DNA of 64,000 nt from Pseudomonas fluorescens (GTDB lineage: Bacteria > Pseudomonadota > Gammaproteobacteria > Pseudomonadales > Pseudomonadaceae), in the NCBI RefSeq assembly GCF_902497895.1, contig NZ_CABVHQ010000010.1:1-64000 (forward strand). The letters are read 5' to 3'. The translations under genes were made by a program, and so were the position numbers. Each line of letters begins with the position of its first letter. The stretch's first letter is position 1. This document shows, in pieces, positions 5,968-33,221 of the stretch. Under the pieces are notes generated by a model that was given only the letters and a program-made list of their open reading frames with translations, was not told the DNA's origin and did no database searches.

Positions 5968-7063
5968 TTACAGCCCTTGTTTGAGGCTGGCGATCAGGTA
6001 TTCGTCGATATCGCCGTCGAGCACCTTGTCGCAGTCGCTGCGCTCGATGTTAGTGCGCAGATCCTTGATCCGCGACTGGTCGAGCACGTACGAACGGATC
6101 TGATGACCCCAGCCGATATCCGACTTGGTGTCTTCCAGGGCTTGCGAAGCAGCGTTGCGCTTCTGCACTTCCTGTTCGTACAAACGTGCCCGCAACATTT
6201 TCATCGCGGTGTCTTTGTTCGCGTGCTGGGAACGTTCGTTCTGGCAGCAGACCACGGTGTTGCTCGGTACGTGGGTGATACGGACCGCCGAGTCGGTGGT
6301 GTTTACGTGCTGACCACCGGCACCGGAGGAGCGATAGGTATCGATCCGCAAGTCCGACGGGTTGATGTCGATTTCGATGTTGTCATCGATTTCCGGCGAA
6401 ACGAAAACCGCCGAGAACGAGGTGTGACGGCGGTTGCCGGAGTCGTACGGGCTCTTGCGCACCAGACGGTGCACGCCGATTTCGGTGCGCAGCCAGCCAA
6501 AGGCGTATTCACCCTTGATATGCACGGTCGCGCCCTTGATCCCGGCGACTTCACCGGCGGACAGCTCCATGATGGTCGCTTCGAAACCGCGTTTATCCGC
6601 CCAGCGCAGGTACATGCGCAGCAGGATGTTGGCCCAGTCCTGGGCTTCGGTGCCGCCGGAACCGGACTGAATGTCCAGGTAAGCGTTGTTGGCATCCATC
6701 TCGCCGCTGAACATCCGGCGGAACTCTAGCTTCTCGAGGGATTCGCGCAGACGCTCGACTTCAGCGGCAACGTCGTCTACAGCGGCCTGGTCTTCTTCCT
6801 CGGCAGACATCAGCAGCAGGTCTTTGGCATCTACCAGACCACTGGACATCTCATCAAGGGTATCGACGATCTGGGCCAGCAAGGAACGCTCGCGGCCTAG
6901 ATTCTGGGCGTATTCAGGGTTGTTCCAGACACTCGGATCTTCAAGCTCGCGATTGACTTCGGTCAGACGCTCATGCTTTTGATCGTAGTCAAAGATACCC
7001 CCGAATAGTTTCGGAGCGCTCGGACAGGTCCTTGATACTGTTAAGGATCGGGTTGATTTCCAT
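5968..7063 (-). CDS. prfB: Peptide chain release factor 2, programmed +1 frameshift
   Basis: Reads UGA and UAA stop codons and releases the peptide. Two joined segments encode it. Codons from the ATG at 7063 to CTT at 6994-6992 give 24 residues ending RGYL; then comes an in-frame TGA (6991-6989). Slipping one base at CTT-TGA-C continues as DYDQKHERL from 6990 down to the stop at 5968, giving 364 residues, the standard length. The Shine-Dalgarno-like CGGGGG just before the slip site is present. The catalytic GGQ lies in SGAGGQHVN. The stop-recognition tripeptide reads SPY (204-206) rather than the SPF of E. coli. The frameshift is the known autoregulatory mechanism: low RF2 favours slippage. 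Confidence 0.97.
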
Positions 7064-26207: not shown

Positions 26208-26415
26208 GGGGCACCTCTCTATTTATGGTCAGGCTCCAGGGTTCTGTTTGAATAGTCGACGAGTGACTGGAAGGATGCAGCACCCGCCCCCGCGGGCAAA
26301 AAATTGACAAGATGTCACAAGGCCAATCAAGCAGTGCTTAGAGCCTAGTCGACAACGGGGGATGAGGGGGGGGTTCAGAACACTAAAGACCCCGATTTGA
26401 AAGGATGCACACCTC

Positions 26416-26548
26416 TGTGGCGAGGGGGCTTGCCCCCGCTGGAGCGCGCAGCGGTCCTGAAATCAGACAATGAGTTCCCTCAGTTAGAACTCGTGTGCCG
26501 GTTTTACGACTGCTGCGCAGCCGAGCGGGGGCAAGCCCCCTCGCCACA
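26416..26548. repeat. Composite palindromic repeat, GAGGGGGCTTG family, reverse orientation
   Basis: Outer arms TGTGGCGAGGGGGCTTGC and GCAAGCCCCCTCGCCACA. The left inner arm is the GGAGCGCGCAGCGGTCCT type, the right inner arm GTTTTACGACTGCTGCGCAG, so it is inverted relative to the copy at 1306. The 396-base gap 26208-26603 otherwise shows only a G-run near 26364 and no gene. Confidence 0.85.
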
Positions 26549-26603
26549 GAGTCCGTGTTCGACTTCCTGTTTCCAAACCCGCTCGCCACAACAGCTGCGC
26601 GAA

Positions 26604-28313
26604 CTACCGCGGTTCGATATGGGCAATCATCAATTGCACGGTTTCCTGGCCGCGGAACTCGTTGAGATCGAGTTTGTAAGCCAGCTCGACCCAGCGAATG
26701 GTCGGGTTCGGCCAGATGTCGCGATCGATGCCGAACGCGATACCGTCGAGTTTCAGCGAACCGCATTCACTTTTGAGCACCACTTTCAAGTGTCGCTCGC
26801 CGACGATGCGCTGCTCGACCAGCTGAAACACTCCATGAAACAGCGGTTCGGGGAAGTGCTGCCCCCAGGGACCCGCGTGGCGCAAGGCCCGGGCCAGTTC
26901 CAGGTGGAACTCTTCGACCGCCAGCGTACCGTCCGAGAGCAGCCGCCCGGTCAGGTCTTCCTCACGCAGTTGGCGACGGACTTCAGCGTCGAAGGCCTCG
27001 GCAAACGCCGGAAAATTCTGCTCCGGCAACGACAGTCCGGCCGCCATGGCGTGGCCACCAAACTTGCTGATCAATTCCGGATGTTTCGCCGCCACCGCAT
27101 CCAGTGCGTCGCGGATATGGAAACCCGGCACCGAACGCGCCGAGCCTTTGAGCATGCCTTCACCCGCATCGGCAAACGCAATGGTCGGGCGGTGGTAGCG
27201 CTCTTTCATACGCGAAGCGAGGATCCCGATGACCCCCTGGTGCCAATCGGCTTCGAACAGGCACAGGCCGAACGGCATCGATTCCAGCGGTAAGTCCTTG
27301 AGCTGGGCCAGGGCTTCGCGCTGCATGCCTTGTTCGATGGATTTGCGGTGCTGGTTCAGTTCATCGAGCTGGGTCGCCATTTCCCGCGCTGAGGCCATAT
27401 CTTCGCTGAGCAGGCATTCGATGCCCAGGCTCATGTCATCCAGGCGCCCTGCTGCGTTCAGACGCGGGCCAATGATAAAGCCCAGGTCGGTGGAGGTGAT
27501 TCGCGAGTGATCGCGCTTGGCGACTTCCAGGATCGCTTTGAGACCTGGCCGTGCACGTCACGCGCGAATCCGCTCAAGCCCCTGGTGCACCAGAATCCGG
27601 TTGTTGGCATCCAGTGGTACCACGTCGGCGACACTGCCCAGCGCCACCAGATCCAGCAGCTCACCGATGTTCGGCTGCGGCTTGCTGTCGTACCGGCCCA
27701 GGCTGCGCAGACGCGCGCGCAACGCCATCAGTACGTAAAAGATCACTCCGACCCCGGCCAGGGCCTTGCTCGGAAACTCGCAACCCGGTTGATTCGGGTT
27801 GACGATGGCGTCCGCCGCCGGCAACTCGTGACCCGGCACGTGGTGGTCGGTGACCAGTACGGTCAGCCCCGCCGCTTTCGCCGCTGCCACACCTTCGACG
27901 CTGGAGATGCCGTTGTCGACGGTGATCAGCAGCTGCGGTTTGCGCTGCAGGGCGACCGCGACAATTTCCGGGGTCAGGCCGTAACCGTATTCGAAACGAT
28001 TGGGCACCAGATAGTCGACGTGAGCGGCACCCAGCAGGCGTAGACCGAGCAGGCCGACCGTACTGGCGGTCGCGCCATCGGCGTCGAAGTCACCGACGAT
28101 CAGGATGCGTTGACGCTGTTCCAGCGCCAGCACCAGCAAATCCACGGCCGCGTCGATACCCTTGAGTTGCTGATACGGGATCAGGCGCGCCAGGCTCTTG
28201 TCCAGTTCAGCCTCCGACTGCACGCCACGGGCCGCGTAGAGACGGGTCAACAACGGTGGCAGGTCACCGAGAAACGGCAGGACAGCGGGCAACAGGCGGG
28301 GTTCGATACGCAT
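26604..28313 (-). pseudogene. recJ: recJ exonuclease gene interrupted by an in-frame TGA
   Basis: RecJ degrades single-stranded DNA 5' to 3' in recombination and mismatch repair. The frame from ATG 28313 to 26604 spans 570 codons, the full length of Pseudomonas RecJ, but codon 252 is TGA (27560-27558). Before it are the DHH-domain motifs GDFDADGA (75-81), VDNG and TDHH (155-158). After it, in the same frame, come RARPGLKAILEVAK, the GPRLNAAGRLDD region and the DHHA1 signature GGHAMAAGLSL. A single G-to-T change of a GGA glycine codon would explain it. Either recJ was lost recently, the stop is read through, or it is a base-call error. A shortened C-terminal piece could start at ATG 27434 but would lack the active site. 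Confidence 0.9.
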
Positions 28314-28380: not shown

Positions 28381-28923
28381 TCAGCCGCGCTCGCCGGTCA
28401 GCCACTGCAGCTGGACTTCGTGCTGACCGCGATCGTCGGTGACGAAAATCGTGCCTTCGCTGATCATCACGTCCCACTTGATGACCCGCGGCATGTCTTT
28501 GGCCAGCACTTCCAGAATCTCTTGCGGCACCGCGGCGATGTTGACGTTTTTCAGGTTTTTCACCGCCGGGATCACTTTGGTTTCCCAGACCCGCAGGCTG
28601 CCATAGGCCAGCAAACTGGTGCGTTCGGTACGACGCGAGCACCAGGTCAGGCGATCGGCGTCCGGCTGGCCGACTTCGATCCAGTGCAGGACACGGTCAT
28701 CCAGGCTTTTTTCCCACAGGGCGGGTTCGTCTACTTCTGACAGACCGCGACCAAAGGACAGCTGCTCGTTGTACCAAAAGGCGTAGGCCAACAGGCGCAC
28801 GGTCATCCGTTCTTCGGTTTCCGAAGGATGGCGGGCGATGGTCTGCTTGACGCTTTGGTATACCCCACGATCGAGGTCAGTAAGGTTCAGTTCAAACTTG
28901 TAGGTCGTGGACGGCTGGGCCAT
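28381..28923 (-). CDS. yaeQ: YaeQ family protein
   Basis: A 180-residue protein matching E. coli YaeQ (181 residues): YKFELNLTDLDRGVY at the N-terminus, RMTVRLLAYAFWYNE, and the C-terminal QHEVQLQWL. The family has a PD-(D/E)XK nuclease-like fold, but no nuclease activity is established and its function is unsettled. The ATG at 28923 is preferred to the longer open frame because family similarity begins there. It lies 67 bases upstream of recJ on the same strand. Confidence 0.9.
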   Translation of the reverse strand: MAQPSTTYKFELNLTDLDRGVYQSVKQTIARHPSETEERMTVRLLAYAFWYNEQLSFGRGLSEVDEPALWEKSLDDRVLHWIEVGQPDADRLTWCSRRTERTSLLAYGSLRVWETKVIPAVKNLKNVNIAAVPQEILEVLAKDMPRVIKWDVMISEGTIFVTDDRGQHEVQLQWLTGERG

Positions 28924-29072
28924 GAACGGGCTTCTTGATACGAGGAAAGGCGGCAAGTCTAACCGATGCGCAGGCCAATCAACGAATCCCGACACTCATC
29001 AACCTTTAGCCGGACCGCCGGGCTATGTTAAAACCCTCTCTCCGTTCAGCCGTTTGTCTTACAGGATTTCCC

Positions 29073-31325: not shown

Positions 31326-31613
31326 TCAATTGTTCCTGGCGAGCGCCTTGCCCTGTGCTGCATTGCGCAACGCGGCAATAACACAGGGTTCGAGGCGCCC
31401 TTCGGCGATCAACACGTCACGATGCAGGCCGTCGACGACATCTGTCAGCGAACGCTGGTCGGTCAACTGGGCCTGATTGAACTCCCGCTCGACCACAATG
31501 GCCCCGGCGGCATTCTTCAAGGTCACCAGGCATTCGCCATGGGCACCCGACGGGGTCAGGGCTACGTGATAGGGACTCAACGCCTCCCCCAGTAACAGGC
31601 TGATACTTTCCAT
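31326..31613 (-). CDS. Small DUF3509-like protein
   Basis: A 95-residue soluble protein starting MESISLLLGEALSPYHVALTPSG and containing the GECLVTLKNAAGAIVVERE beta-rich segment and a DVVDGLHRDVLIAEGRLEP helix. Its size and pattern fit DUF3509, a small Pseudomonas family of unknown role. The ATG at 31613 is used; a GTG at 31625 is also in frame. It is monocistronic. The 160 bases up to the sensor gene show no further gene. Confidence 0.65.
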   Translation of the reverse strand: MESISLLLGEALSPYHVALTPSGAHGECLVTLKNAAGAIVVEREFNQAQLTDQRSLTDVVDGLHRDVLIAEGRLEPCVIAALRNAAQGKALARNN

Positions 31614-31785
31614 CTCGATCACCACTCAATAGTCCGAAAACAAAGTGCCTAAGGGCGTGTGTCCACAGTAAATGACCACTGGCCCGTGAAGAAAGTTCGT
31701 CAGGTCGACCGAAAGCGCGCCCCATCAATGTGAATGGGTAGAGCATGCCGGTGAAAGATGACAAAAAGAAAACTGCTGTCCCGCG

Positions 31786-33147
31786 TCAATCGGCGTCAGA
31801 CTCTTTGCGCTCATTGAAATCGATCCAGCCACCCAGCAATCCCCGCAACTGCCCCTCGGCACTGTAGAACGGGACCGTCCACTGATAGACATTCATCACA
31901 CCGGTCTTGAGCCTCAACTGTCGATTGACGAACCTGGTTTTTTGCGTTTTCAACTGCTCCATGAGCTCCCCATGCAGCTGCTCGGCGGTCTCCCTGGGAA
32001 AGACATCGACCTCTGTCAAACGGCGCCCCTGAATCTGATCCTGGCGAACCGACAACCTCTCTTCATAGCTTTTGTTGCACATGACCAGGCGCGCTTGCAG
32101 ATCGCGGACAAAAACCGGATCGGGAAAGGCATTGAGCAGCACTTGTTCAAAAGCCAGTTGATCCTTGAGTTGTCTTTCGACCTTTAGACGCTGTTGCACC
32201 TGAAGCTTGAGCCGACGATTCCAGACCAGGGAAATCAATCCAGACACCATGGCGATAACCGCGCCCCAACACACCCAGCGCGAAACGCGTTGCCACAAAG
32301 AGGCCGGAGCTGCAGGCGTGATGCTGCCCACCCACTTCTGGCGAATAGCCTGCAACTCGGCGGCGGTGAACGCATCAAGAGCCTTGTTGAGGATACTCAA
32401 CAACTGTGGCTGGCTTTTACGTATAGCCAAATGATCGGACGCCCATTTGCCTTCGACACGGCTTCCCACCTTGAGTTGTCCTCGCGGATATAACTGCGCG
32501 CCCGTCTCGTTCTCGATAGTCACATCCGCCTCGCCACTTTCGACCAGGGCCCGGGCTTCGGCATAGGTCTTGACCAAGCGCAGACGAATATCCGGATAGT
32601 CAGCTTTGATGCCGGCCTCCAAAGCATGTCGTTCCGGTAGCGCCAGAACCCTCCCCGCAAGCTGTTCCAGGGAAATCCATGGGGAATCGTCTGCCCGGAT
32701 CACGAAGACCCAGCCCGATCCTCCAAAGGCATGGCTGAAACTTAGAAACGCTTTGCGCTCGTCATTGACCGCAAGGGTGGTGCTCATGTCCGCCTTGCCG
32801 CTTTCCAGCAGCTCAAGCATCTGAGCGTTGGAAAAGGTTTCCTCATGGATGAACTGCAAACCCGTCAGCGATGAAATGCGCTTGAGGATATCGCTGTTCC
32901 ATCCGGCCCACTGCCCGCGCTTGTCCTTGAACAGATACAGCGGATATTGCAATGAGGCCACTATGACTTGAGGGTGTTCACGGATCCATTCCAGCTCTGC
33001 TGCATCAAGCCTTGGCCTTTTGTCGGCGATAGAGGTTTCGGGGGCAAACGATCCGCCGTGAACCGCCAGGGCTGGATGGCCGAAAGCCATCGCTGCGAAA
33101 AACAACCACCGGCACAGGCCTGGTTTGAACCTGATAAAAAACTGCAT
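31786..33147 (-). CDS. BvgS/EvgS-like sensor lacking a kinase domain (periplasmic domain-TM-PAS)
   Basis: A 453-residue protein: signal peptide (about 1-27, ending PALAVHGG), one periplasmic Venus-flytrap domain (about 45-275, with IREHPQVIVASLQYPLYLF and ISLEQLAGRVLALPERHALE), a transmembrane helix (about 285-303), a linker helix, and a PAS domain (about 330-450, with LLNAFPDPVFVRDLQARLVMCN). BvgS and EvgS continue into a histidine kinase after the PAS; this one stops at GGWIDFNERKESDAD. No kinase fragment follows. GGAG lies five bases before the ATG at 33147. It may be a truncated sensor or a partner for another kinase. It is alone between two terminator-bounded units. Confidence 0.8.
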   Translation of the reverse strand: MQFFIRFKPGLCRWLFFAAMAFGHPALAVHGGSFAPETSIADKRPRLDAAELEWIREHPQVIVASLQYPLYLFKDKRGQWAGWNSDILKRISSLTGLQFIHEETFSNAQMLELLESGKADMSTTLAVNDERKAFLSFSHAFGGSGWVFVIRADDSPWISLEQLAGRVLALPERHALEAGIKADYPDIRLRLVKTYAEARALVESGEADVTIENETGAQLYPRGQLKVGSRVEGKWASDHLAIRKSQPQLLSILNKALDAFTAAELQAIRQKWVGSITPAAPASLWQRVSRWVCWGAVIAMVSGLISLVWNRRLKLQVQQRLKVERQLKDQLAFEQVLLNAFPDPVFVRDLQARLVMCNKSYEERLSVRQDQIQGRRLTEVDVFPRETAEQLHGELMEQLKTQKTRFVNRQLRLKTGVMNVYQWTVPFYSAEGQLRGLLGGWIDFNERKESDAD

Positions 33148-33221
33148 TACCACTCCCTTCACAGCCACTCGTCCGTCCTTCAATGGCGAAACTACGACAA
33201 GTGTGGCACGCAGAAATGAGA

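Follow-up and report, generated by a model that had tools for sequence, protein, structure and literature searches.

Is the TGA in the middle of an otherwise intact recJ gene a wrong base in the assembly, a codon that the cell reads as an amino acid, or a stop that has inactivated the gene? The recJ in question belongs to a Pseudomonas draft assembly (173 contigs totaling 6,340,107 bases; completeness, 100%; contamination, 1.91%) and lies on contig 10 (121,634 bases), in a window of 64 kb, by which we mean the whole stretch of DNA analyzed here.

An in-frame TGA in the only recJ detected

The initial annotation had reported a TGA at codon 252 of a 570-codon recJ frame on the minus strand, and we verified both the codon (27560..27558) and its surroundings, which read ERIRA-stop-RARPGLKA (Table 1). 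As it also stated, the reading frame continues open on both sides of the TGA and resembles RecJ there, with each half matching the NCBIfam recJ model TIGR00644. Like bacterial RecJ, a DHH-DHHA1-OB 5'-3' single-strand exonuclease, the read-through frame scores above the cut-off of this model (513.5 versus 396.9 bits) and shows the usual domain order in Pfam, with DHH at amino acids (aa) 69 to 226, DHHA1 at 353 to 445, and RecJ_OB at 461 to 564. Unlike bacterial RecJ, it is broken at codon 252, and the two pieces taken separately stay below the cut-off, at 247 bits for the 251-aa product and 195.6 bits for the other half. On the stricter model NF008290, the read-through frame falls below the cut-off (837.1 versus 900); the read-through protein also matches solved RecJ structures.

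A single recJ was detected in the genome, and no second copy was found there by the genus-genome search or by a family search. Among the genomes searched, the nearest recJ is that of the sister genome G332 (98% protein and 92.7% DNA identity), followed by that of G224 (97% and 89.7%). Named relatives such as P. chlororaphis (95% identity) place the genome in Pseudomonas. The open frame upstream of recJ, which we take to be YaeQ, recurs in G332 at 99% identity, again immediately before recJ. Downstream of recJ, we spotted by eye an inverted repeat formed by CGAGGGGGCTTGCCCCCGC and its complement.

Table 1. Positions of recJ, its interruption, and other features, numbered along the 64-kb window
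Feature	Position	Strand	Remarks
recJ frame	26604..28313	-	570 codons including the final stop (TAG); interrupted at codon 252
In-frame TGA, recJ codon 252	27558..27560	-	next base C
Expected shortened product	27558..28313	-	251 aa; DHH (69-226) alone of the three Pfam domains
Restart frame from Met294	26604..27434	-	276 aa; DHHA1 and RecJ_OB, without R290
L159V	27837-27839	-	adjoins DHH motif 156-158
D322H	27348-27350	-	linker helix
Upstream neighbor of recJ (presumably YaeQ)	28381..28995	-	open frame, same direction as recJ
Inverted repeat	26400-26560		downstream of recJ
prfB (presumed)	6980-7063	-	in-frame TGA frameshift site
Sensor-like protein	31786-33183	-	solute-binding and PAS domains
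Stretch with a short ORF	31420-31764		no Pfam match

Predicted product

The stop is located between the Pfam matches for DHH and DHHA1. The truncation had been said to remove DHHA1 and the rest of the DHH domain. The loss of DHHA1 stands; that of the rest of DHH does not by Pfam, whose DHH match precedes the stop, but does by the limits of the Deinococcus radiodurans RecJ structure, in which, according to the available part of PMC4846377, DHH extends to residue 295 and with which codon 252 aligns at residue 244 (residue count on the alignment). Also absent from the 251-residue fragment is R290, which belongs to NAAGR (286 to 290) and aligns with Arg280 of D. radiodurans RecJ (again by residue count), the arginine of motif V; motifs VI and VII are borne by the DHHA1 parts (both from the same portion of PMC4846377). 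Without R290, DHHA1, and OB, the fragment should have no exonuclease activity, and the inactive product foreseen by the initial annotation is, judging from sequence, probable. The first ATG, GTG, or TTG after the stop is Met294, 123 bases beyond it, so a product restarted there would lack R290 as well.

The stop is found in one genome only

Our genus search gave a recJ match in 394 of 398 genomes (our own included), and among the matches listed, our genome alone has an internal stop. We then compared DNA from 30 loci of this search, the best 80 of 564 matches from relatives, and 2 others, and found a glycine codon at position 252 in all 111 rows other than our own. Two rows of partial length were dropped for later counts, leaving 101 distinct sequences, ours included, and glycine is encoded in 100/100 of the other distinct Pseudomonas sequences. 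When 16 selected genomes were examined by family search, none of the others repeated this stop. The comparison with close relatives that had been proposed as a check thus places the stop in our genome alone and marks it as recent; in being absent from the relatives compared and in removing needed parts of the protein, it resembles a nonsense pseudogene.

An origin of the TGA by a single change from GGA, as initially suggested, is not demonstrated: codon 252 is GGC in one of the two nearest relatives and GGG in the other, and GGA is present in 18/108 relative rows (the sister G332 left out). The preceding codon also differs, being GCG here and in 2/108 of these rows and GCC in 94/108, so that codons 251 and 252 read GCG TGA in our genome versus GCC GGC and GCC GGG in the two nearest relatives. 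A broken mutS or mutY was tried as the cause and rejected, as the matches of both are without stops.

Several other genomes have an imperfect recJ of a different kind. G003 and G360 (loci L118 and L117), genomes of one and two contigs, share a frame break around codon 484 in the same TGGGG run, ahead of the OB domain; it is probably a base-run error in both, possibly a mutable site. The frame of G317 breaks near codon 147, G341 has recJ in pieces across two contigs, and G081 shows several frame breaks and out-of-frame stops, yet glycine at 252. In the 4/398 genomes where the genus search gave no recJ match, the family search was also negative. The contig of one of them (G299) stops right after the upstream neighbor, at the expected start of recJ, and in the three others (G180, G188, and G367) the upstream neighbor is missing along with recJ; these absences are likely assembly gaps.

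Age of the stop and selection on recJ

We placed the changes in recJ by comparison with the sister G332, with G224 as the outgroup and the stop left out of the counts. Our branch carries 5 replacement and 44 silent changes, of which 3 and 23 fall after the stop, versus 5 and 48 on the sister branch. In this comparison, 16 silent changes could be assigned to neither branch, and for residues 207 and 443 a wider set of 20 relatives favors the placing opposite to that given by G224. A fully neutral branch would yield ∼124 replacements versus the 5 observed, and a simple Poisson estimate puts the upper 95% bound on the unconstrained share of our branch at 3.7 to 8.5%. Because the two branches are so alike (5:44 versus 5:48), a long neutral decay of recJ is excluded, and selection on the gene was normal before the stop arose.

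Three changes in our sequence are private and fall at columns that are uniform in the 100 others, namely, L159V, the stop, and D322H, the last of which lies in the linker helix as delimited in the available part of PMC4846377. At least three private changes at near-invariant columns are found in 3/101 sequences, ours included, and at least two in 8/101, our own having two when the stop is excluded. This excess hints weakly at a relaxation of constraint and is no proof of it. As for selection after the lesion, the counts reveal no long relaxation, and D322H hints weakly at relaxed selection; a lesion of recent date would not be visible in such counts.

Error, alternative decoding, or inactivation

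An error of sequencing or assembly would mean that the recJ of the strain is intact and that only the consensus is wrong at codon 252. The draft state of the assembly, with its 173 contigs and 1.91% contamination, would accommodate such an error, as would the otherwise normal conservation of recJ and the broken recJ of G003, G360, G317, and G081, which look like errors. The breaks in those genomes are, however, frame breaks and not base changes, and a single miscalled base would not account for everything that separates our site from its two nearest relatives, since two additional bases differ within four positions. We also counted stops inside the matched stretches of two domain families, for which 150/201 ABC and 150/174 LysR candidates were scored, and found 0 in 112 ABC matches and 0 in 80 LysR matches. 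The absence of stops from these 192 matches implies that neither base errors nor the use of UGA as a sense codon is general in this genome. Together with the finding that, of the genes compared on the 121.6-kb contig, no recognizable one but recJ was broken, the clean domain counts speak for a sound assembly; we regard an error as rather unlikely and the TGA base as probably real in the organism. One LysR match, C24:58361, is weak and falls within an open frame of 34 aa.

If the codon is real, some ribosomes might read it as tryptophan or another residue and produce a little full-length RecJ from a reduced-level allele. UGA followed by C, as found here, is a leaky stop context; the frame remains conserved beyond the stop, and position 252 may tolerate change, given the Arg found there in D. 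radiodurans RecJ (residue count) and the low conservation of this stretch. Many bacterial in-frame stops are argued to keep a low dN/dS, and low-level decoding of TGA is mentioned, in the accessible portion of PMC7918605. Recency alone, however, accounts for the conservation after the stop, and the presence of the stop in one genome only argues against a conserved recoding. The tRNA-Trp gene is identical to that of the sister and has the G24 and the five-pair anticodon stem of an ordinary tRNA-Trp (features named in the part of PMC13092985 available), on which grounds an altered tRNA-Trp was rejected; UGA as a sense codon was likewise rejected, with 0 stops in the 192 domain matches and the prfB frameshift site kept. 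A stop in one genome, stop-free domain matches, and, as the candidate UGA suppressor compared, the same tRNA-Trp as the sister do not make a case of programmed readthrough or of a code change, and we consider a functional leak quite unlikely. Insertion of selenocysteine is highly improbable in spite of a tRNA-Sec in the genome (79 bits), as the sister also has one, yet keeps a glycine codon, and 100/100 others carry glycine in this column instead of cysteine. No Rfam match was found at 27400-27700 with E up to 1, the 41 bases starting with the UGA have an ordinary fold (z, -0.99; 31/200 shuffles as good), and the 60 bases around it one that is only slightly better (z, -1.66; 15/200); selenocysteine was rejected for want of a SECIS-like stem-loop after the UGA and of Cys in homologues. 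We give just as little credence to a split RecJ, in which two polypeptides would reassemble after a restart beyond the stop. The in-frame ATG at Met294 does open a frame with DHHA1 and OB, but residues 252 to 293, including the motif V arginine R290 (motif from the excerpt of PMC4846377), would be in neither piece, this first start codon lies 123 bases beyond the stop, and none of the relatives compared shares the stop.

The explanation that we consider probable is a recent nonsense mutation, private to the strain or its lineage, in the sole recJ, with UGA acting as a normal stop, the RecJ fragment inactive, and the loss tolerated. A chance mutation would have created the TGA at codon 252, and normal decoding of UGA as a stop would yield the 251-residue fragment lacking the motif V arginine, DHHA1, and OB, and with them exonuclease activity. 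The cell would survive, RecJ being non-essential and other single-strand exonuclease genes being present; the loss may be tolerated because of ExoI and ExoVII, and the matches of ExoI and of the ExoVII large subunit in the genome are stop-free. Against a nonsense mutation, it can be said that the still-conserved frame after the stop (3 replacement to 23 silent changes) would also fit use by readthrough, that one base may be wrong, and that one assembly of one strain was compared. Very unlikely, in our view, is a wild lineage that keeps a reduced-level recJ by UGA leakage or in which selection, for instance for altered recombination, has recently removed RecJ, D322H and L159V being companion changes in either case.

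The initial annotation considered a natural loss of recJ to be notable, a view that finds no support in the available portions of two papers. E. coli strains in which an engineered early stop and a frameshift inactivate recJ have been made and put to use, also with the three other exonuclease genes xonA, xseA, and exoX inactivated (PMC3434165); our case shares with these a premature stop in the recJ of a living strain, but theirs was engineered at the start of the gene in a laboratory strain, whereas ours is natural and mid-gene. In-frame stops in bacterial genes are described as widespread and mostly short-lived (PMC7918605), and the recJ stop resembles them in that purifying selection otherwise acts on the gene holding the single stop; it differs in being seen in one genome, whereas that study retained stops shared by at least two species. 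The recJ stop is an ordinary case that fits this picture, and it appears to be neither a new kind of gene nor a new decoding. Among the titles and abstract openings listed on recJ pseudogenes, nonsense mutations, premature stops, and Pseudomonas, we found no report of this allele. If real, the stop makes the isolate a natural recJ mutant that should be checked before it is used as a reference in studies of recombination or repair. In other respects, it adds another example to the young nonsense alleles of genes that are conserved yet non-essential.

Other features of the contig and window

For signs of decay elsewhere, ORFs of at least 100 aa from G332 and G062, in the stretches fetched from these genomes, were compared with the contig. 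Out of 83 ORFs from G332, 22 matched (15 intact, 4 flagged, and 3 under 60% identity left unjudged); the 126 from G062 gave 56 matches (29 intact, 19 flagged, and 8 unjudged by the same limit). All 23 flagged ORFs were set against the contig's own open frames: recJ was flagged twice, and nearly all the others were antisense or out-of-frame shadows of a longer intact frame, or 5' extensions before one. The standing of recJ as the sole recognizable gene found broken applies to those genes of the contig that were matched within the fetched stretches. Two further flagged ORFs stand apart: one, at the contig edge, is partially covered and has no stop, and the other, a 106-aa ORF of G332, has a match here whose frame shifts around 31657 and for which Pfam gave nothing.

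No tRNA and no Rfam family at gathering score was found in the 64-kb window. The gene that we take to be prfB, for release factor 2, which reads UGA, retains its in-frame TGA in CTT TGA C, presumably the usual frameshift motif. The sensor-like protein has no kinase domain, and G332 has a similar frame of 460 aa at its position. The stretch after it, at 31420-31764, contains a short ORF that differs in frame between our genome and G332 and is perhaps an old remnant.
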